From contig PHAB01000012.1 in NCBI GenBank assembly GCA_002840275.1, positions 1 to 64,000 of the forward strand: a DNA stretch of 64,000 bases, read 5' to 3'. The notes under the pieces are model-generated. The model was not told where the DNA came from. It saw nothing but the letters and a program-made list of their open reading frames with translations, and searched no databases. Shown piece after piece: positions 1 to 39,626 of the stretch (its first letter is position 1; the number at the start of each line of letters is the position of its first letter). The DNA comes from Firmicutes bacterium HGW-Firmicutes-14. Lineage in GTDB: Bacteria > Bacillota > Thermincolia > Thermincolales > UBA2595. The translations under genes were made by a program, and so were the position numbers.

Positions 1-1938
1 ATTTTTCAGCCGTCCGGCCGCCGGGGAAAGGTTGCCGAAGGCAAGACCCTGCTGGAAGCCTCATATGAACTCGGTGTAGAAATAGAAGCGCCGTGCGGGG
101 CTCATAAGGTCTGCGGAAAATGTAAAGTTAAGGTGGAGACGGGTTTTTTCGAGAAGTTCAATATCGATTCCCGGGTTGAGAACCTGTCACCCCTGACGGA
201 AGAAGAGAAAGAAATGCTGAAGCCTGAGGAAATAGAAAATAATTTCCGCCTGGCATGTTCCACCCGGATTCAGGGTGACATACTGCTGTATGTACCGGAA
301 GAGAGCCGCAAAGCCGACCAGGTCGTACTGGATACCGGTAAGGAGCGGGTATTTAAACTGAATCCGGCGGTTAAAAACTACTATGTGCAAATGCAGAAGG
401 CTACCCTGGAAGACCACCGGGACGACCTGCAGCGTTTGCAGGATGCCCTGAAAGACCAGTTCGGACTGGAAAACCTCGCTATGGATTACTTTATTCTGAG
501 AGAACTGCCCAATATTATCAGGGAACAGGACTGGAAGGTAACGGCCACGGTGCTTTATGACCGGGAAATCATTGATGTCAGGCCCGGTTTTGTCCAGAAG
601 TGGTACGGCATCGGGATAGATGTGGGAACTACTACCGTAGCGGCATACCTTTGTGATATGAATACAGGACAGATGCTAGTCAAGGACGGGATGATGAACC
701 CGCAGGTAAGGTACGGGGAAGACGTCCTGTCCAGGATTACCTATGCCATGATGAATGAAGACGGGCGGGATAAACTGCATGATGCCATTATTGAAGGGAT
801 TAACACCCTGGCTGCCCGGATGACCGAAAAAGCCGGACTTAAACCTGAAGATGTTGTGGAAATCACCCTGGTGTTCAATACCGCCATGCACCACTGCCTG
901 CTGAACCTGGAACCGAAATTTATGGGCCGGGCCCCCTTTGCCCCGGCCATCAGCGCTCCCTTTGATGTTAAAGCCCGTGATTTGGGGATAAAAATAAACA
1001 AGTGTGCCAATATCCATGTCCTGCCGGTGGAAGCCGGATTCGTCGGACCAGACAATGTCTCCGTGCTGATTGCGGAAGAACCGTACAAACAGGATGAAGA
1101 AATCCGCCTGATCATAGATATCGGGACCAACGGAGAAATCGACCTGGGCAACAGGAACAGACTGCTCTGCACCTCCTGTGCCACCGGCCCGGCCCTGGAA
1201 GGGGCTCAGATCAAATTTGGGATGAGGGCCGCCCCGGGAGCCATCGAAAAACTCAGGATTGACCCTGAAACCCTGGAATGCACCTACCGGGTAATCGGTG
1301 ATGAAAACTGGCATGGCCGGGGCAGTAAGGGAAATGCCAAGGGTATCTGCGGTTCCGGCATCATTGATATGGTGGCTGAGGTATTTAAAGCCGGAATCAT
1401 CAACAAATCAGGGAAATTTAACATGAAACTGGAAACAGACCGTATCCGCAGGGATGAGAACGGCAAAGCCGAGTATGTAATGGTATATGCGGAAGACAGC
1501 GGTATCGGCAAAGACATCACTGTTACCCAGGGAGATATCAGGGCCGTACAGCTGGCCAAATCAGCCCTGTATTGCGGTGCCAAGATTCTGATGAGGAAAC
1601 TCGGGACAGACAAAATAGACCGGGTAACCCTGGCGGGAGCCTTTGGCAGTTTTATCGACAAAGAATCCTCCATGGTTATCGGGATGTTCCCTGATTGTGA
1701 CCTGGACAGGGTTGCGGCCGTGGGGAACGCGGCCGGTGACGGGGCTCAGGCAGCCCTGCTGGATAAAGACAAGAGGATAGAAGCCCGGGATGTGGCAGCA
1801 AAAGTAGACTTTGTGGAAACCGCCGTAGAACCTGACTTCCAGGAACTGTTTGCTGCGGCCATGGCGTTCCCTCACCAAACCGACGATTTCCCCAGCATCC
1901 AGCATATCCTGGACAAAATCCCCGGTTACAAGAAATAG
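1..1938 (+). CDS. RamA-like corrinoid activation ATPase (5' partial)
   Basis: ATP-dependent reductive activator that returns oxidised Co(II) corrinoid proteins to Co(I); DUF4445/ASKHA family. The frame is open from base 1, so the true start lies outside the window. The N-terminus has a [2Fe-2S] ferredoxin cysteine pattern (CGAHKVCGKCKV, about residues 32-43 of the visible part). The ATPase half has ASKHA phosphate motifs GIDVGTTT and IDIGTNGE and a late GAFGSF motif. An N-terminal 2Fe-2S domain is the bacterial layout, whereas Methanosarcina RamA carries 4Fe-4S clusters at the C-terminus. It heads the methylamine cluster and would serve its three corrinoid proteins. It ends in UAG (1936-1938), in the same frame as the next gene, in an organism that appears to decode UAG as pyrrolysine; see findings. 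Confidence 0.92.
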   Translation: MFQPSGRRGKVAEGKTLLEASYELGVEIEAPCGAHKVCGKCKVKVETGFFEKFNIDSRVENLSPLTEEEKEMLKPEEIENNFRLACSTRIQGDILLYVPEESRKADQVVLDTGKERVFKLNPAVKNYYVQMQKATLEDHRDDLQRLQDALKDQFGLENLAMDYFILRELPNIIREQDWKVTATVLYDREIIDVRPGFVQKWYGIGIDVGTTTVAAYLCDMNTGQMLVKDGMMNPQVRYGEDVLSRITYAMMNEDGRDKLHDAIIEGINTLAARMTEKAGLKPEDVVEITLVFNTAMHHCLLNLEPKFMGRAPFAPAISAPFDVKARDLGIKINKCANIHVLPVEAGFVGPDNVSVLIAEEPYKQDEEIRLIIDIGTNGEIDLGNRNRLLCTSCATGPALEGAQIKFGMRAAPGAIEKLRIDPETLECTYRVIGDENWHGRGSKGNAKGICGSGIIDMVAEVFKAGIINKSGKFNMKLETDRIRRDENGKAEYVMVYAEDSGIGKDITVTQGDIRAVQLAKSALYCGAKILMRKLGTDKIDRVTLAGAFGSFIDKESSMVIGMFPDCDLDRVAAVGNAAGDGAQAALLDKDKRIEARDVAAKVDFVETAVEPDFQELFAAAMAFPHQTDDFPSIQHILDKIPGYKK

Positions 1939-1968
1939 CCAAAAATTAATGGATTGCAGGTGAAAATG

Positions 1969-2937
1969 ATGTTTAAACTGGAGAAACCCCAAAAAGTGTG
2001 CCAGATAGGCAGTTTCAAGGTTGGCGGCCAGTACGGTGAAAACCCGCCGCTCCTGATATCATCAATGTTTCATAATGGAGACAGGATATTGGAGAGCAGG
2101 AAGGAAGGCAAGTGGGATAAGGCCAAAGCGGAAGAATATGTGAAGAGACAGGAAGCCCTGGAAGATATGACAGGCATCCCCTCCATTGTGGCCATGGTGG
2201 CCAATTCCCGGGATGAGATGGCCAGGTATATCGACTGGTTCACAAGTATCAGTGACAGGCCCTTCGGTATAGACATGTGGGTGGAAAAACCCAGGCTGGA
2301 AGCAGCGGAATATGTGGCCCAAAAAGGCCTGCAGGACCGGCTGGTGTACAACAGCATCACCCCCTGGGACAAGGACATCCCCGGTCAGGTGGCAAAGCTT
2401 AGGGAACTGGGCATCAAACATGTGATAGTCCAGGCCTATGACGTTACCGACCCGTCGCCCCAGGGCAGGCTGACCAGTTTTAATAAGATGATGGAATCAG
2501 TTGGTGAAGGGACCTTTGAATCAGTGCTGGTAGATACCTCGGTAATGAACCTGCCGGCCATCGCCTTCTCAGGAGTGGCCAACAGGATTGTTAAGGAAGC
2601 CACCGGCTGGCCCTGTGGTGTGGCCAGTTCCAATGGCACATATATGTGGAAGGAAGCCCGGGAGCTGTTCGGTACCGACGGTTTTGCCGCCATGAATGCT
2701 GCCGGTCAGGGATGTTCGGCCCTGTTCTGGACCGACTTCATCTTCTACGGGCCGATAGTGGCCGCCCCCAGGATGTTCCCGGCCGTAGTATCCGGCGCCG
2801 TTATGGCTGCCACCATGGGATTCTATGAGACGGGCAGGCTGCCATCCAATGAGAACCATCCCCTTTACAAATTCTTTGGCGAGTTTGCCGAAAAACTTAA
2901 AGGCGGAGATGAGCAGTCCCTGCCGGTACATGATTAA
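1969..2937 (+). CDS. MtrH/MtgA-type methylcorrinoid:tetrahydrofolate methyltransferase
   Basis: MtrH-family TIM-barrel protein of 322 aa. Bacterial members such as MtgA of Desulfitobacterium move the methyl group from a methyl-corrinoid protein to tetrahydrofolate, which is the likely exit route for methylamine carbon here. The start at 1969 (MFKLEK) matches the usual family N-terminus and has an AGGTG 7 nt upstream; in-frame starts at 1954, 1960 and 1966 cannot be excluded. Family-like segments include VGGQYGENPPLL near the N-terminus and CGVASSNGTYMW in the C-terminal half. It lies 30 nt after the RamA-like gene in the same frame, so UAG readthrough would join the two. The acceptor (THF) is inferred from family knowledge. 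Confidence 0.88.
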   Translation: MFKLEKPQKVCQIGSFKVGGQYGENPPLLISSMFHNGDRILESRKEGKWDKAKAEEYVKRQEALEDMTGIPSIVAMVANSRDEMARYIDWFTSISDRPFGIDMWVEKPRLEAAEYVAQKGLQDRLVYNSITPWDKDIPGQVAKLRELGIKHVIVQAYDVTDPSPQGRLTSFNKMMESVGEGTFESVLVDTSVMNLPAIAFSGVANRIVKEATGWPCGVASSNGTYMWKEARELFGTDGFAAMNAAGQGCSALFWTDFIFYGPIVAAPRMFPAVVSGAVMAATMGFYETGRLPSNENHPLYKFFGEFAEKLKGGDEQSLPVHD

Positions 2938-2990: not shown

Positions 2991-4040
2991 ATGAATGCAA
3001 AGGAAAGAGTCATAAACCAGCTGCTGGGCAAAGAAGTTGACCGTCCGGCCTGTTACAGCGGTATGGGCAATGTAACCACTGCCGGTCTGGAACAGTTTGG
3101 CTACAAATTTGCCAGGGTTCACGGAGACGCCAAAATGATGGCTGATACCGCTGCATCGTCCCACAAGCTTTTCGGCTTTGAATGTGCGATAGTGCCGTAT
3201 GACCTGTGCCTGGAAGCCGAAGCCATCGGCTGTGTGATGAACCCCTATGAACAGGTTGACCAGCTCCTGTACCCCACAATTAAAGAAAAGGTCTGCCATT
3301 CGGAAGACGAAATGGAAACCTTCCCCATCCCTGATGATGTGGCTTCCCGCGGCCGGGTGCCTTTAGTCTGTGAGGCTATCAGACTGCTGCAGGCAGATAT
3401 CGGGAGTGAAGTGGCCATAGGGACATATGTGCTTGGACCCTTCACCCTGGCCGGACAGTTAATGGACTTAAACGACCTGTTCAAACTGTCCTTCAAGAGC
3501 CCGGCCAAGGTCAATGCCATGCTGGACCGCCTGTCAGAAGCCACCATCAAGATAGCCAGGGCCCTCAGGGATGCCGGCGCCGATTATATCTGCATCAGGG
3601 AAATGGGTGCTACCACCGATGTTTTAAGTCCCAAGGTATTCCAAAAGGTAATCTTCCCCCATCTGAAAAAGGTCAGGGATGCCCTGGCTGATGTGCCGAC
3701 CATCCTGCATATCTGCGGCGGTACCAACAAGATTATGAATATCCTGAAGGATGTGGGCTGTAACGCCATATCGGTGGAAACCAAGAACGACCTGGCCAAA
3801 AGCCGGGAAGATATCGGATATGAGCCGCTCCTCTTCGGGAATGTGGATGCCTATAACATACTGGTAACGGCCGCCCCGGAAGATGTGGAAAAGGCAGTGC
3901 TGGCCGCCCTGGAAGGCAGCTGTGACTCCATATGGCCCAGTTGTGACATCTGGCCCACAGCGCCGATTGAAAACCTTAAAGCAATGACAGAAACCGTGAA
4001 GAAATACGGGGCAGAAAAATGGGTCCGCAAGAACAGGTAA
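2991..4040 (+). CDS. MtaA/MtbA-type corrinoid methyltransferase (UroD fold)
   Basis: A 349-aa protein of the uroporphyrinogen decarboxylase-like superfamily, methylcobamide:coenzyme M methyltransferase branch. The HICGG motif (about residue 239) and a C-terminal cysteine in PSCDIWPTAPIENL fit the zinc-binding H-x-C...C set of MtaA/MtbA. In methanogens this enzyme methylates coenzyme M. A Gram-positive acetogen-type host is not expected to use CoM, so the real acceptor is open: it may relay methyl groups to THF or another thiol, or act in demethylation. It has a good ribosome site (ACGGAGG) 8 nt before ATG 2991 and sits between the MtrH-type gene and the first corrinoid gene, so it is part of the same operon. 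Confidence 0.85.
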   Translation: MNAKERVINQLLGKEVDRPACYSGMGNVTTAGLEQFGYKFARVHGDAKMMADTAASSHKLFGFECAIVPYDLCLEAEAIGCVMNPYEQVDQLLYPTIKEKVCHSEDEMETFPIPDDVASRGRVPLVCEAIRLLQADIGSEVAIGTYVLGPFTLAGQLMDLNDLFKLSFKSPAKVNAMLDRLSEATIKIARALRDAGADYICIREMGATTDVLSPKVFQKVIFPHLKKVRDALADVPTILHICGGTNKIMNILKDVGCNAISVETKNDLAKSREDIGYEPLLFGNVDAYNILVTAAPEDVEKAVLAALEGSCDSIWPSCDIWPTAPIENLKAMTETVKKYGAEKWVRKNR

Positions 4041-4069
4041 AACAAAAAAACTTAAGGGAGGCAAATAAA

Positions 4070-4693
4070 ATGAGCAACGAAAAAGAAATCCTGCAAAAAC
4101 TCAGGGATGGGGTAGTTGAATACGACAATGACATGGTTATCGAGGCTTCCAATGAAGCACTGGCCCAGGGAATTGACGCTGAAAAAGCCATATTTGACGG
4201 GCTGGTGGCCGGAATTGAAGAAATTGGCCGCCTTTACGAGCTGGAAGAAATCTTTGTGCCGGAAATGCTCCTGGCTGCTGATGCCATGTATGCCGGGCTG
4301 AACATCCTGAAGCCCCATATGGAGAAAAAGGGTGACGGGGGAACCAAAGGCCATGTGATCATGGGTGTGGTTCAGGGCGATGTGCATGACATCGGCAAAA
4401 ATATAGTCAAGATGATGTTTGATGTGGCCGGGTTTGAGGTCCATGACCTGGGCCGGGACGTGCCTTTGGAGGACTTTATTGAGGAACAGCTGAACACCAA
4501 TTCCGACCTGGTCTGCCTGTCAGCCATGATGACCACCACCATGGTCGGGATGCCGGAGATTATCAGGAAGCTCAAGGAGAAAAACCCCAAGGTCAAGATT
4601 ATGATAGGCGGGGCCCCGGTCAATGAGAACCTGGCCAGCCAGTGGGGAGCCGACGGGTATGCCAAAGATGCCAATAACGCAGGATGCTATTAA
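4070..4693 (+). CDS. Corrinoid (B12-binding) methyl-carrier protein, C-terminus frameshifted
   Basis: MtbC/MttC/MtgC-type corrinoid protein: a helical cap followed by a Rossmann B12-binding domain, with cobalt-ligating His106 in the DVHDIGKN motif. It accepts the methyl group from an amine methyltransferase and passes it on. ATG 4070 has AGGGAGG 8 nt upstream; a longer upstream frame is not supported. The reading frame ends early at 207 aa (...DANNAGCY). Directly downstream the alternative frame encodes DAINMVSSLRNL and stops at 4721, which looks like the family's normal last helix, so a small indel near 4675-4685 has probably cut the C-terminus. The B12 site itself is intact. The two paralogues in this cluster are 212 and 214 aa. 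Confidence 0.88.
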   Translation: MSNEKEILQKLRDGVVEYDNDMVIEASNEALAQGIDAEKAIFDGLVAGIEEIGRLYELEEIFVPEMLLAADAMYAGLNILKPHMEKKGDGGTKGHVIMGVVQGDVHDIGKNIVKMMFDVAGFEVHDLGRDVPLEDFIEEQLNTNSDLVCLSAMMTTTMVGMPEIIRKLKEKNPKVKIMIGGAPVNENLASQWGADGYAKDANNAGCY

Positions 4694-4830: not shown

Positions 4831-4856
4831 GCTGGAATCAATTTTTTGATTCCAGC
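4831..4856. promoter_or_regulatory. 26-bp palindrome, candidate enhancer (UAS)
   Basis: Arms GCTGGAATC and GATTCCAGC are perfectly complementary around an 8-nt AT-rich centre. The repeat lies about 70-95 bp upstream of the sigma-54 promoter, a typical distance for an enhancer-binding protein site. It is not followed by a T-run, so it is a poor terminator, although it could also form a hairpin in RNA from the upstream genes. The GGAATC/GATTCC half-site recurs at 4781-4786. Confidence 0.45.
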
Positions 4857-4925
4857 AAGAATCAATAAAGGGTATAAATTACCTGCCGGGGCGTGGAAAC
4901 CTAGAGAACAAAGCCTTTTAAAAAA

Positions 4926-4943
4926 TTGGCATCAATATTGCAT
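4926..4943 (+). promoter_or_regulatory. Sigma-54 (-24/-12) promoter
   Basis: TTGGCATCAATATTGCAT matches the sigma-54 consensus (TTGGCAC, N5, TTGCA) almost exactly, with GG at 4928-4929, GC at 4940-4941 and the required 10-nt gap. Transcription would begin near 4953, about 85 nt before the second corrinoid gene. It would drive the corrinoid-mttB-mttC-mtbB block, and two sigma-54 activators are encoded downstream. Confidence 0.75.
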
Positions 4944-5037
4944 TTACATAATTAGCGGGGACTTTCAAAAGGGGGTGACCTGCTCAAGAAGGCATTTTCC
5001 CGATTTGAACAATAATTTGGAGGTGAAATTATTTAAA

Positions 5038-5676
5038 ATGGGTAAAGAAGATATCCTCAAAAGAGCTATGAACGCAGTTATTGACGGGGATGAGGATGCT
5101 GCTATAGCAGCGGCAAATCAGGCTATTACAGAAGGGCTGAATCCCGTTGAGGTAATATCCGAGGGACTTTCCGCCGGAATGACCAAAGTCGGTGATTTGT
5201 TCAACAATGAAGAAATTTCCCTGCCCTTTGTCATAGTTGCTGCCGATGCCATGACCAAGGCCATTGCTATCCTTGAACCACATATTCCTCCGGAACACAA
5301 AGGGGAAAAAGAAGGGACCGTAGTTATGGGTACGGTAGAAGGAGACATTCACGACATAGGCAAAGGAATCGTATGTACAATGTTGAGAGTGTATGGTTTT
5401 GAAGTCCATGACCTGGGACGGGATGTCCCTGTACAGGCGTTTATCGACAAAGCCAAAGAAGTTAATGCGGACATTATCGGTTCTTCAACTTTGATGACAA
5501 CCACCCTGCCTGGACAGAAAGCTCTCCAGGAAGCTATTGCAGCTGAAGGGCTGAAGGTCAAAACCATGGTCGGCGGAGCTGCCACTAACCAGCAGTGGGC
5601 TGACAAAATAGGGGCTAATGCTTATGGAGAAAATGCTACCGATGCGGTCCAGAAAGCAAAAGAACTGGCCCAATAA
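5038..5676 (+). CDS. Corrinoid methyl-carrier protein (MttC/MtbC family)
   Basis: Second corrinoid protein of the cluster, 212 aa, with a methionine-synthase-like cap (about residues 1-85) and a B12-binding domain. The motif DIHDIGKG places the cobalt ligand at His105, and GSSTLMTTT and MVGGAA are later B12-fold motifs. It is the first gene behind the sigma-54 promoter. ATG 5038 is preceded by GGAGGTGA with a long 11-nt gap; the frame is open further upstream to 4846, but that stretch contains the promoter and is not coding-like. Its place before mttB suggests it carries methyl groups from trimethylamine or dimethylamine; which partner it serves cannot be read from sequence. Confidence 0.92.
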   Translation: MGKEDILKRAMNAVIDGDEDAAIAAANQAITEGLNPVEVISEGLSAGMTKVGDLFNNEEISLPFVIVAADAMTKAIAILEPHIPPEHKGEKEGTVVMGTVEGDIHDIGKGIVCTMLRVYGFEVHDLGRDVPVQAFIDKAKEVNADIIGSSTLMTTTLPGQKALQEAIAAEGLKVKTMVGGAATNQQWADKIGANAYGENATDAVQKAKELAQ

Positions 5677-5701: not shown

Positions 5702-7174
5702 TTGAAACGAGGACTTCATGCCGGTTTAGATGAACGGCGCGGTTTTTGCCTTAATATGTTCAGTAACGATGAACTTGAAGAAATCCATTACGCGACCCTG
5801 GAAGTGCTGGAAAATGTGGGGATACTGGTCTTCTGTGATGAAGCCCTGGAGATTCTGGACGGGGCCGGCGCAGATGTTGATAAGACTAATAATACGGTAA
5901 GGTTCCCCCAATGGCTGGTAGAAGATGCAATCAGGTCGGCACCGAGAAAAATCCTGCTTGCAGGCCGCGATCCCAAACATGACATGGTCTGTGAAGGCAG
6001 GAGGGTGGGCTTTACCAACTTCGGAGCAGGGGTCATGATAGTTGATCCCTATACCGGAGAAATGAAGGAAACCACCAAAAAGGATGTTGGGCAGACAGCC
6101 CTTGTCTGTGACGCCCTGGATACTGTTGATATTTATTCAAGTGCTGTGGTGGGAAGGGATATGCCTGAAGCAACAGTGGACCTGCATGAGGCAGAAGCCT
6201 TCCTGTCCAATACGACTAAACACTGCCAGCATATCGACCTCACCGGCGGCGCCGGTGCCAGGGGATTTCTGGAGATGGGTGCTGCCATCGTCGGCGGGAT
6301 GGAGGAACTTCATCGCAGGCCTGTGATTTCAGCTCTGGTCTGCCCCGTAAGTCCGCTCCAACTCCATACCAATACCTGTGAAATAATAATCGAATTTGCC
6401 AAGGCAGGCGTCCCTGTAAATATCTTGTCAATGGCTATGTCGGGAGCCTCTTCCCCCATCACCCTGGCCGGGACCCTTGTAACCCATAATGCCGAGGTGT
6501 TGGCCGGCATCGTATTGGCCCAATCCACCCGCAAGGGATCTCCAATTATGTACGGAAGTTCAACAACAACCTTTGACCTGACATATGTTACTGCACCCGT
6601 GGGTGCACCGGAACTGGGGATGATTAACGCCGGAGTTGCCGAACTGTCCAACTTCTACAGACTTCCCAGCTATGTGGCAGGTACCTAGGGTGACTCCAAG
6701 CTTTCTGATGCTCAAGCCGGTCATGAAAAGACCATCACCGCACTGCTGCCGGCCCTGGCCGGAGCCAACCTGATTTACGGCATGGGCATGCTTGAGCTTG
6801 GAGTGACATTCAGCTTCGCTCAACTCCTTATCGACGATGAGATTGCTTCCATGGTTAAACGTGTAGTGCAGGGCATTACCGTAAACGATGAGACACTGGC
6901 TGTTGATATTATCAAAAATGTCGGAGCCGGGAAAGATTTCCTGGGACAGCGGCATACGAGAGATTTCATGGCCAGAGAGCAGTCTAAACCCAAACTGATT
7001 GACAGAAGGATGAGGGGCGCATGGTCCAGCCGCGGAGGAAAATCCATGGCTGAGCGGGCTAATGATAAAGCTATCGAAATCCTTGAAAACCATAAACCCG
7101 TACCTCTGCCGGAGGATGTCCAGAAAAGGTTCAGGGAAATCATAGAACGCGCTGAATCAGAACACGGCGTATAA
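5702..7174 (+). CDS. mttB: Trimethylamine:corrinoid methyltransferase with pyrrolysine (UAG 6686-6688)
   Basis: MttB demethylates trimethylamine and methylates its cognate corrinoid protein, using pyrrolysine as the active-site residue. The frame starts at TTG 5702, six nt after GGAGGTGA, and meets UAG at codon 329 (6686-6688) in the context YVAGT-UAG-GDSKLSDA. It then runs on to UAA 7172-7174, giving 490 aa, the usual MttB length. The sequence after UAG (HEKT..LPALAGANLIYGMG) is conserved MttB, not junk. The paralogue at 12009-13475 has its UAG at the same codon, 329. The gene lies between two corrinoid genes and ends 14 nt before the next start. Product identity follows from the family; function needs the host's pylT/pylS. 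Confidence 0.95.
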
Positions 7175-7188
7175 AAGGTGGTGAAATT

Positions 7189-7833
7189 ATGAGCAGGGAA
7201 GAATTAATAGAGCAGGCTGCCCAGTCTATTGTTGAGGCTAACAAGGATCTGGCGGTGGAAATTGCCAATAAAGCTATAGCTGAAGGCATTGACCCGGTTG
7301 ATATGATTAACAACGGCTATTCGGAAGGAATGGCCAGGTGTGGAGACCGGTTTGACAGGGGTGAAATGTTCCTGCCGGAACTGATTGTGGCATCTGATGC
7401 CATGGTGGCAGCAATCAGTGTTCTCGAAGAAGCCATGCCGGCGGAAAACCGCGCTGAAAAACTTGGGACAGTGGTATTAGGTACTATCGAAGGCGATGTC
7501 CACGATATCGGTAAGGGAATTGTTGCAACCATGCTCAGGGTATATGGTTTTGAGGTCCATGACCTGGGCCGGGATGTTCCTATCAGCTCGTTTGTGGCTA
7601 AGGCAAAGGAAGTCAATGCTGACATCGTCGGCTCCTCGGCCCTGATGACGACCACCCAGGTTGGACAGAAAGCCCTTGAGGAGGCTCTTAAGAACGCCTG
7701 CCTCAGGGATAAGGTTAAGACGATGGTGGGAGGAGCTGTGGTCACCCAGCGCTGGGCTGACAAGATAGGGTCCGACCTTTATGCAGAAAATGCTTCCGAA
7801 GCGGTAATTAAGCTTAAAGAACTTTTCAGTTAA
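7189..7833 (+). CDS. mttC: Corrinoid methyl-carrier protein (MttC-like)
   Basis: Third corrinoid protein, 214 aa, closely similar to the 5038-5676 protein over its full length. Cobalt-binding His105 lies in DVHDIGKG; GSSALMTTT and MVGGAV follow. It has a GGTGG ribosome site before ATG 7189. It lies directly between mttB and mtbB, which is the arrangement of mttC in methylotrophic methanogens, so it is most likely the trimethylamine corrinoid carrier. Assignment to MttC rather than MtbC rests on gene order only. Confidence 0.9.
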   Translation: MSREELIEQAAQSIVEANKDLAVEIANKAIAEGIDPVDMINNGYSEGMARCGDRFDRGEMFLPELIVASDAMVAAISVLEEAMPAENRAEKLGTVVLGTIEGDVHDIGKGIVATMLRVYGFEVHDLGRDVPISSFVAKAKEVNADIVGSSALMTTTQVGQKALEEALKNACLRDKVKTMVGGAVVTQRWADKIGSDLYAENASEAVIKLKELFS

Positions 7834-7857
7834 AAAGTATGCCAGAAGGAGGTGTGG

Positions 7858-9261
7858 ATGTTGAAGAAATACCTGACTCGGATGGGTGACGGCGAGAGGG
7901 TGGAAATGACTGCCGACGAAATCAGACGGGATTTCGAACTTGGGACCAATGATGCGGCAGACCGGGGAAAAATAGCGCCCCTGACCCAGGATGACCTGGA
8001 CCGGCTTCTCGAAATCTTTACCAATCCAAATAAGGTTGTCAGTGTTGAACCGGGTAATGAAGTACCACTGACCCATGATATCGGCACCCTGAGGTTAATG
8101 GGTGACCAGGGTAACAGCGGGGTTGGAATTCCCCTAAGCAGGGTTCAGGGTATTCAGGTTCATGAAAGAGCCTTTGCCTGTGATACCATGGAACTTGGGC
8201 ATATCGATTACAGCTTTAAGCCGGTAAAGCCCGTGATAGCCATGGAACAGCAGGAGCTGGAAAACGCTCTGTTGTCTACTATTGTACCCCTTTTCTATGG
8301 AGCCATGCCAAACCTGGGTTTGTACTACAGCCCGGACGGGCCTTTTGGCAACCCGTCGGATCTCCTTCCGATGGGCAAGATACAGGAAGCCCGTGAAGCC
8401 CAGGAAGGCGCTGTGGAACACGCTACCAGGGACATGATCTACATAGCTGAGAAGCTGGCTGCTGTAGGAGCGGACGGAATCAATTTTGACACGACCGGAG
8501 CGGCAGGGGATACCGATATGAAGGCTACCCTTCATGCGGTGGAATATCTGAAGGCCAATACAAACCTTGCCGTAGAAGTGGGAATGGCCGGCGAATTTGT
8601 GCTGGGTATGCACGGCGGTCTGGAATATGATGGAGTAAGAATAGCCGGACTTTACCCACACCAGCAGGTCAAGCTTGTTGAAAAGGCCGGGGCTGATATA
8701 TTCGGACCGGTGGTTAACACTAACACCAGTAAGTCCATGGCTTGGAACCTGGCCAGGGCTGTGACCTTTATCAAGGCCTGTACGGAAGTGGCTAACATAC
8801 CCATACATGTTAATATGGGTATGGGTGTAGGGGGATCCCCCGTATTTGAGACTCCCCCTGTCGACAGTGTGACCAGGGCCTCCAAGGCCATGGTGGAAAT
8901 TGCCAAAGTCGACGGGTTGTAGGTAGGCGTAGGTGACCCCTTCGGGATGCCGATAGCTCACGGAATGGCAGCGGGAATGGGCGGAATCAGGACTGCCGGA
9001 GATCTGGTGGCCCGCATGCAGATGACCCGCAAGATGCGGATCAGAGAAGCAAAAGCCTATGTTGCCGAGAAGCTAAAAGTTTCCCCGACCGACCTGTCAA
9101 ATGAGCATGTGATGAGGGAAGTCCGCGAGGAGTTGGACATCGGAATCATTACATCAGTGCCGGGTTGTGCCAAGGGCATAGAAGCCAAAGCCAGGATTGC
9201 CGAACTGCTGGGAATTGAAATAGCAAGTGTTAAGAGGCTTAAAAATAAGGTTAACTTTTAA
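7858..9261 (+). CDS. mtbB: Dimethylamine:corrinoid methyltransferase with pyrrolysine (UAG 8920-8922)
   Basis: MtbB transfers a methyl group from dimethylamine to a corrinoid protein. From ATG 7858 (AGGAGG five nt upstream) the frame reads [15 protein letters not shown], matching the family N-terminus, and meets UAG at codon 355 (8920-8922) within [19 protein letters not shown]. It continues to UAA 9259-9261, a total of 467 aa, the full family length. The flanks of the UAG are the known pyrrolysine neighbourhood of MtbB. GTG 7852 is an alternative start with poor spacing. No monomethylamine enzyme (mtmB) is present in the window, so the final demethylation step is not accounted for here. Confidence 0.95.
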
Positions 9262-11866: not shown

Positions 11867-12008
11867 GCTAAGTTACCATTGATTAATATACCTCTATGGG
11901 ATATACTTAGGATTATAAATAATAGCATTTCTTAATAGTGCCCATAACATTTGATTACATCATATGACAATTAATAAGATTTCATATTTTGTAACAGGGG
12001 GAACCGAT
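11867..12008 (+). other. Intergenic region before second mttB
   Basis: A+T-rich gap. It contains a possible -10 (TATAAA within GGATTATAAATAAT near 11912-11925) but no sigma-54 -24/-12 pair that I can find. The last bases carry the AGGGGG ribosome site of mttB (11996-12001). Confidence 0.3.
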
Positions 12009-13475
12009 GTGAAGAAAGGCCAAAGAATCTCATCATCAGGCTGGCTGGGGCTTGGGCTGAAGACCCTTACCCCGGGAGAATTGGACGACATCCACGGGGC
12101 AACTCTGAAAACCCTTCATTACTCGGGTATGAAGGTGTTTAGCCAAAGGGCCCTTGAGATATTTGCCGACGGCGGGGCGGATGTTGATTTTAAAAACCTT
12201 ATGGTCCGAATACCACCCTATATGATAGAGGAGGCCATTGATTCGGCGCCCTCATGCATCATTCTGGCCGGCAGGGATCCTGAAAATGACGTATTTGTCG
12301 GCGGGAAAAGAGTTCACTTTACCACTTTCGGCGCCGGGTGCAGGTTTATGGACACTCATACCGGCAAAGTAGCCCCCTCTACCAAGTCAGATATTGAGCT
12401 TTCGGCTCTGGTGTGTGACGCCATGGACAGTGTCGATATATTCACCAGCCCCATGGTGGCTACAGACATGCCTGTGGAGACAGCCGGTCTGCATGAGGCA
12501 GAGGCCTTTTTACTTAACACTTCTAAGCACTGCCAGCATGACCGCCTGTGTGACGGAATGGAGGCCAGGTTTTTTTTCGAAATGGCCTCAACCATTGCCG
12601 GTGGCCCGGAGAAACTGAGGGAGCGGCCTATTGTTTCAACTATGGTCTGCCCGTCAAGCCCTCTTCAGCTTCATAAGGGAACTGCAGAAATAATCATGGA
12701 ATCGGCCGATGCGGGTGTTCCGGTGAATATACTTTCAATGGTCATGGCCGGTGCGACTGCCCCGGTCACCCTGGCTGGGACACTGGTGGTCCATAATGCT
12801 GAGGTGCTGGGCGGGCTGGCACTGCATCAACTGACTAACCGGGGGGCCCCGGTTATTTACGGCAGTTCCTCAACTATATTTGATATGAACTGTATCACTG
12901 CTCCTGTGGGAGCGCCGGAACTTGGTATGATAGGTGCGGCAGCTGCTCAACTGGCAAACTTCTACCTGCTTCCCAGCTACGTCGGCGGAACCTAGGGAGA
13001 CTCAAAACTTACCGATATCCAGATCGGCCATGAAAAATCCCTTACAACCATTATACCGGCATTGGCAGGGGCCAACCTGATATATGGCATGGGGATGATG
13101 GAAATGGGGGTTACCTTCAGTTTAGTACAGCTGATGATTGACGATGCCATTGTTAATGACGTCAAAAAGATGATTGTCTCAGACGTTGGTGTGGATAATA
13201 TATCTTCTCGGGAATGGCTTGATAAACATCATGGGAGAGGATTCCCGCTGAGATACTGGTCACCTCACAAGTTAAGGGGCAGGGAGGTACCGTTTCATGG
13301 ATCAAGACTTGACGGGAGGATTGATATTACTGACAGAGCCGACCAAAGGGTCCAGACAATACTGAATAATCACCGTCTGAAGCAGCTGCCTCAGGCAACC
13401 ATAAAAAAAATCAGAGAAATAATCATAGAAGCAGGGGAAAGGAGGAAGTGGCTTTGCTTACAGCAAGAGATTTAA
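12009..13475 (+). CDS. mttB: Second trimethylamine methyltransferase with pyrrolysine (UAG 12993-12995)
   Basis: Paralogue of the 5702-7174 enzyme, 488 aa. GTG 12009 (AGGGGG 7 nt upstream) gives MKKGQR, which aligns with MKRGLH of the first copy; the ATG at 11964 would add 15 unmatched residues. UAG falls at codon 329, the same codon as in the first copy, in the context YVGGT-UAG-GDSKLTDI, and the frame runs on through conserved MttB sequence to UAA 13473-13475. The copies differ enough to be old duplicates or separately acquired. This one has no adjacent corrinoid gene, but its 3' end overlaps a sigma-54 activator gene. It may have a different amine substrate. Confidence 0.94.
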
Positions 13476-17837: not shown

Positions 17838-18040
17838 ATTTGATATTGTAATCCGGCAGGTGCCCGAATGAGGGAGAATAGGGAATCAGGTGATAATCCT
17901 GAGCGGTCCCGCCACTGTATGTGGGTAGCAAAACGCAGATCAGCCACTGGTCCTCGGACTGGGAAGGCGCGTTGAGCGGTAACCCGCGAGCCAGGAGACC
18001 TGCCTGCCCGGATTGACTGATCCCGCGTGAGACGGGAGAA
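17838..18040 (+). promoter_or_regulatory. Cobalamin (B12) riboswitch
   Basis: Shows the conserved cobalamin riboswitch elements in order: GGTGCCCG near the 5' end, GAATAGGGAATCAGGTG, the CCCGCCACTGTA segment, a second GCCACTGG, GGGAAGGCGCG, and GAGCCAGGAGACCTGCC near 17988-18005. The closing helix pairs the CCGGCAGGTGCC region with GCCTGCCCGG (18001-18010). It is followed by an intrinsic terminator, so it should switch transcription of the downstream ECF transporter off when the cell has adenosylcobalamin or a related corrinoid. Confidence 0.93.
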
Positions 18041-37856: not shown

Positions 37857-37863
37857 TAAAGCG

Positions 37864-37922
<59 letters not shown>

Positions 37923-39466: not shown

Positions 39467-39569
39467 AAACGTGAAAATTACCTTTGAAGGCCTGTACATG
39501 CAATGTGTTGGGGTACGCAAAATATTAATTAAACAGACCCTCAAAGGGTGCATAAGTTGCATATGTCGC

Positions 39570-39626
39570 GAGAGCGCTTGAATGGCATTCAAGAGATCAG
39601 GGGTTCGAGCCCCCTCGTCTCCACCA
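39570..39626 (+). repeat. tRNA-Ala(GGC) 3' fragment, att-like direct repeat copy 2
   Basis: 57 nt with the same extent as copy 1, 52/57 identical, with a perfect T-stem (AGGGG/CCCCT) and CCACCA at the end. As in copy 1 the 5' part of the tRNA is missing. The two copies are 1.7 kb apart in direct orientation and enclose the toxin-antitoxin pair and HIRAN gene. Confidence 0.75.

Follow-up and report, generated by a model that had tools for sequence, protein, structure and literature searches.

An in-frame UAG codon very probably read as pyrrolysine in a trimethylamine methyltransferase gene of a Bacillota bacterium with divided pyl loci

As shown in Table 1, a run of methylamine genes lies in the window, which is the whole 64,000-nucleotide stretch of DNA that was analysed (C23:1-64000; C23, C15 and the like denote contigs). 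The window belongs to a draft genome of 3.65 Mb in 67 contigs (99.96% complete, 2.25% estimated contamination). Since Spo0A is present (412 bits, over the cut-off), the organism is most likely an endospore-forming member of Bacillota. The mttB1 frame consists of 328 codons, a lone TAG (6686-6688), 161 sense codons, and a TAA (7172-7174). The translation agrees with a preliminary description of this DNA, in which the frame from TTG 5702 was said to be broken only by the UAG and the product to be 490 residues long; the 162 codons that it counted past the UAG do continue the frame, but this number includes the terminal stop. The TTG start is plausible, because a GGAGGT ribosome-binding site lies immediately upstream and the alignment with Methanosarcina barkeri MttB begins at residue 4. 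The readthrough product scores 759.4 bits against TIGR02369, the profile of pyrrolysine-type trimethylamine methyltransferases (curated cut-off, 525 bits), over profile positions 2-469 of 469. It also matches Pfam MTTB.

Table 1. Features of the methylamine gene run, in window coordinates
Feature	Position	Strand	Remarks
RACo/AcsV-like corrinoid reductive activator	133..1938	+	profile matches; ends in TAG
MtrH/MtgA-family methyltransferase	1954..2937	+	NF002142 361 bits, over cut-off
MtaA/MtbA-like (URO-D fold) methylcobamide methyltransferase homologue	2991..4040	+	profile matches
corrinoid protein (methyltransferase cognate type)	4019..4693	+	TIGR02370 216 bits
corrinoid protein (MttC/MtbC type)	4846..5676	+	TIGR02370 235.6 bits, over cut-off
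mttB1, pyrrolysine-type trimethylamine:corrinoid methyltransferase	5702..7174	+	TTG start, 490 aa with Pyl329; TIGR02369, PF06253
in-frame TAG read as pyrrolysine (probable), mttB1 codon 329/490	6686..6688	+	aligned with M. barkeri MttB Pyl334
Rfam PYLIS_3 match starting at mttB1 TAG	6686..6785	+	85.3 bits
corrinoid protein MtbC	7189..7833	+	TIGR02370 259 bits
mtbB1, pyrrolysine-type dimethylamine methyltransferase split by TAG	7852..9261	+	TIGR02368
in-frame TAG of mtbB1, codon 357	8920..8922	+	Rfam PYLIS_2 match 8920-9019
mttB3, more diverged pyrrolysine-type MttB with in-frame TAG	11964..13475	+	
in-frame TAG of mttB3	12993..12995	+	same alignment column as mttB1 codon 329

Is mttB1 one gene or two? 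An ATG at 6782 opens a frame of 130 amino acids, and the two halves flanking the TAG might be made as separate proteins from two start sites. But this ATG, 31 codons downstream, is the earliest possible start codon past the TAG, so that the C-terminal part is not a separate downstream gene, and a protein starting there would lack the strongly conserved sequence that follows the pyrrolysine position. A split of this kind is not known in the MttB family, and I consider two proteins extremely improbable. As for the PYLIS matches at the mttB1 and mtbB1 TAG codons, they are not counted as proof of an RNA signal, because the conserved coding sequence alone may account for them. No cis element is required for the decoding of UAG as pyrrolysine in Escherichia coli (PMC8211752).

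Cognate corrinoid genes flank mttB1 on both sides (TIGR02370 proteins at 4846-5676 and 7189-7833), and the product of the upstream one is the likely methyl acceptor for MttB1. The MtrH/MtgA-family protein is likely to catalyse the methyl-corrinoid:tetrahydrofolate step. The second methyltransferase in the trimethylamine systems of bacteria has yet to be characterised (PMC8318568); the MtrH-like and MtaA-like genes of this run are candidates for it. The two halves of mtbB1 match TIGR02368 at positions 2-355 and 365-464. The neighbours of mttB3 are MoxR/VWA-type genes and a sigma-54 activator gene. Scans for promoters and terminators gave nothing beyond chance expectation. After the TAG of the RACo gene (junction at 1936-1954), the MtrH gene continues in the same frame without a further stop, and UAG readthrough would make a RACo-MtrH fusion. 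This arrangement is probably fortuitous, since it recurs in other pairs of adjacent genes. Further long open stretches past an in-frame TAG (RACo/MtrH, YkuD/Gate, and others on C15 and C37) were rejected as pyrrolysine proteins; they resemble neighbouring genes that share a frame, with a start codon no more than 18 codons away. Elsewhere in the window, a cobalamin riboswitch (17841-18021) precedes genes for an ABC ATPase and CbiQ cobalt transport, which fits a corrinoid-heavy metabolism. Two 3′ tRNA-Ala(GGC)-like fragments (37861-37920 and 39559-39623), about 1.7 kb apart, resemble attachment sites that would bound a small insertion, in which a HIRAN-domain ORF is accompanied by small toxin-antitoxin-like genes.

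The preliminary description had called for an alignment with Methanosarcina MttB. In the phmmer alignment (residues 4-486, E 1.7e-142), codon 329 falls opposite the X (pyrrolysine) of M. barkeri MttB (PDB 7xcl; also 7xcm and 7xcn), the residue named Pyl334 in the structure paper (PMC9842639). The same paper implicates Tyr364, and this partner is kept as Y359 in mttB1 and is invariant among the four Pyl-type paralogues of the genome. Each of the four has a single TAG, and the four TAG codons share one alignment column. Between mttB1 and mttB2, the differences at codon positions 1/2/3 are 0.32/0.18/0.68 before the TAG and 0.25/0.17/0.57 after it. Both parts thus change in the manner of protein-coding sequence. 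Across seven related genomes, one TAG and no more is present in each of the 17 main hits over the TIGR02369 cut-off, as judged by TAG count (the exact column was verified in the genome of the window), while the non-Pyl MttB homologues below the cut-off have none.

It might be argued that the TAG is a nonsense mutation or a sequencing error, and that mttB1 is a pseudogene or a non-pyrrolysine homologue. Most genes of the MttB superfamily lack pyrrolysine (PMC6778437), and so does a homologue in this genome (C23:94522-95928). The non-pyrrolysine homologues of the MtgB type (PDB 2qne and 9yce) belong to the same family as mttB1 by sequence (E about 4e-69), but they have no TAG or pyrrolysine and act on glycine betaine, not trimethylamine; mttB1 has TAG at codon 329 where an ordinary residue is expected for this type. 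A chance mutation or error is very unlikely in view of the shared column in four paralogues, the coding constraint on the C-terminal part, the similar arrangement of mtbB in three copies, and a complete set of pyl genes.

The pyl genes themselves were found outside the window. It was predicted in the preliminary description that pylT, pylS, and pylBCD exist elsewhere in the genome, and their complete absence was named as evidence against pyrrolysine. The full set is present: pylT, pylSn, pylSc, pylB, pylC, and pylD. PylSn (TIGR03912, 117 bits), PylSc (TIGR02367, 320 bits), the two PylB copies (459 and 457 bits), PylC (397 bits), and PylD (193 bits) all exceed the curated cut-offs. The claim that a bacterial system is uncommon holds in general but not locally, since PylSc is over the cut-off in four of the eight other sampled genomes of the same family. 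On the minus strand of C15, pylT1 (5989-6060), pylSn, pylSc, pylB1, and pylD form a cluster that is missing pylC and adjoins a trimethylamine N-oxide permease gene and the TAG-containing mttB4. The sole copy of pylC lies on C19 directly behind a second pylB (pylB2). A second tRNA-Pyl gene, pylT2 (C23:83682-83753), precedes a corrinoid-mttB2-mtbB2 run and is separated from its first gene by 66 bases. Thus, a single pyl cluster, which is usual and not strictly required, is absent, although C15 and C19 could still be neighbours in this draft assembly.

ARAGORN identified tRNA-Pyl with the anticodon CTA (CUA) at C15:5989-6060 and C23:83682-83753, and none in the 64-kb window. The tRNA-Pyl alignment has 22 pairs, in which 98.2% of cells are paired and six pairs show double changes, i.e., a compensated cloverleaf. 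The pylT1 sequence is identical to the pylT of genome G006, and a single base separates it from those of G004, G007 (cluster C3), and G008. In contrast, 8 of the 72 positions of pylT2 deviate from pylT1; one pair of the anticodon stem is altered on both sides, and pairing is lost at 3-66 in the acceptor stem and at 11-19 in the D stem. Judging from these changes, pylT2 may be weaker or under relaxed selection. Could an ordinary amber-suppressor tRNA insert another amino acid at the mttB1 UAG? The tRNA search covered the window and selected loci, which leaves some room for such a tRNA. Still, the genome encodes two tRNA-Pyl and a dedicated synthetase, and the position is that of the catalytic pyrrolysine of the MttB family, so another amino acid would be most surprising here.

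How did the pyl genes become divided? The first 330 bases of C19 contain the 3′ end of mtmB behind which pylSn and pylSc survive as short scars, and this stretch is 84-90% identical to the intact genes of cluster C3 of the relative G007. In the PylB tree, PylB2 of C19 is sister to the PylB of that cluster (support 100/98), and PylB1 of C15 lies outside the main copies of the family (92/96). The relative G007 has one intact pylT-Sn-Sc-B-C-D cluster and a second, partial one with pylT2, pylSn, a PylSc remnant, pylB2, and pylC2. The remnant, of 48 residues (L078:9360-9503, on G007:C22), is another example of a duplicate pyl cluster in decay. Since G007 has a whole and a partial cluster, duplication or acquisition followed by complementary loss looks likely here as well. 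The simplest reading of the draft assembly is that the genome of the window once had two pyl clusters; C19 would have lost pylT, pylSn, pylSc, and pylD, and C15 would have lost pylC. This split over three partly duplicated and partly decayed loci, as it appears in the draft assembly, is the unusual part of the finding.

Other methylamine methyltransferase genes are scattered over the genome. Besides mttB4 near the pyl cluster on C15, the second corrinoid-mttB2-mtbB2 run is found on C23, and the stretch with mttB2 and its neighbours has a lower G+C content (0.42) and a less typical composition (correlation 0.90), as expected of acquired DNA. An in-frame TAG is present in three copies of mtbB. 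In mtbB2 (G000:C23:86749-88149, where G000 is this genome; L010:2749-4149), TAG serves as the internal pyrrolysine codon and again as the terminator, with TGA directly after it. The third mtbB (G000:C37:69689-71086) is remote from the remaining methylamine genes and has an mttB remnant upstream. The last 27 residues of MtmB are encoded at two contig ends (G000:C19:1-81 and C10:3473-3553); thus, at least two near-identical copies of mtmB were probably lost at an assembly repeat.

The assignment of the mttB1 UAG to pyrrolysine is well supported at the sequence level by the readthrough, the conserved column, and the complete pyl set. It is very likely (about 95%) that mttB1 encodes a genuine pyrrolysine MttB in an endospore-forming bacterium, with UAG 329 decoded by its own pyl machinery. 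The direct basis consists of the sequence, the conservation of the TAG, the complete complement of pyl genes, and the gene neighbours, from which I infer pyrrolysine incorporation, the substrate, the methyl acceptor, and the regulation. PylB, PylC, and PylD would make pyrrolysine from two lysines, and the split synthetase (PylSn and PylSc) would charge it onto tRNA-Pyl (CUA). The ribosome would insert pyrrolysine at codon 329 in competition with the release factor. MttB1 would bind trimethylamine on the pyrrolysine imine and pass the methyl group to the neighbouring corrinoid protein, and MtbB would carry on with dimethylamine. While the methyl group goes to coenzyme M in the case of M. barkeri MttB, the MtrH/MtgA-like or MtaA-like methyltransferase of this bacterial run would move it on, probably to tetrahydrofolate. 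RACo would re-reduce the corrinoid. Two points speak against pyrrolysine. UAG is also the ordinary stop codon of about 20% of genes, and the sequence does not explain how UAG 329 escapes termination. Moreover, the pyl genes are on separate contigs of a draft with 2.25% estimated contamination, although C15 and C19 resemble the remainder of the genome in composition (correlation 0.98).

A bacterial pyrrolysine MttB with its own pyl machinery is already known from Desulfitobacterium, Acetohalobium, and Bilophila. These systems and that of DCMF (PMC3941956, PMC8211752, PMC7593587, PMC6778437) likewise have split PylSn/PylSc, a CUA pylT, pylBCD, and TAG-containing methylamine methyltransferases, with UAG still a common stop codon. 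The order pylSn-Sc-B, also found here, is one of two gene orders described for bacteria (PMC3941956). Unlike in the known bacterial systems, pylC lies outside the pylT-Sn-Sc-B-D cluster, beside a second pylB, and a methylamine gene run has a second, divergent pylT in front of it. Methanomassiliicoccus luminyensis also has pyl genes in more than one copy (PMC3941956). However, the products of its two clusters are mutual closest relatives, while the two partial and complementary loci described here differ in ancestry according to the PylB tree.

From 572 kb, 405 ORFs with a length of 150 codons or more were sampled; TAG terminates 86 of them (21%), including seven whose TAG is in fact the pyrrolysine codon of a methyltransferase. 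The idea that backup stops near UAG-terminated genes act as a safeguard found no support; the median distance to the next stop is 15 codons for UAG, against 10 for UAA and UGA (p 0.07). Since about 20% of the sampled genes end in UAG without a sign of backup stops, decoding probably depends on regulation. This fits the published views that regulation, rather than avoidance of the codon, keeps pyrrolysine restricted in bacteria (PMC3941956) and that Acetohalobium reads UAG as pyrrolysine only while growing on trimethylamine (PMC8211752). A more specific model, code expansion under operon-linked control with two half-clusters each lacking an essential step, seems rather doubtful. In this model, the location of pylT2 upstream of the corrinoid-mttB2-mtbB2 run could make the suppressor supply rise with the transcription of the methylamine genes. 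If true, a cell with UAG at the end of about one-fifth of its genes could thereby restrict the times at which this codon stands for pyrrolysine.

In practice, gene callers without the pyrrolysine code would fragment mttB and mtbB, and the trimethylamine pathway would be overlooked. According to PMC8211752, it has yet to be explained how pyrrolysine decoding is kept in check in bacteria that often use UAG as a stop. This genome is a natural case for that question: its pyl loci are partial, its two tRNA-Pyl genes differ in quality, and ordinary UAG terminators occur within the same gene runs. The mtbB gene that uses UAG as both a sense codon and a terminator adds to that case.
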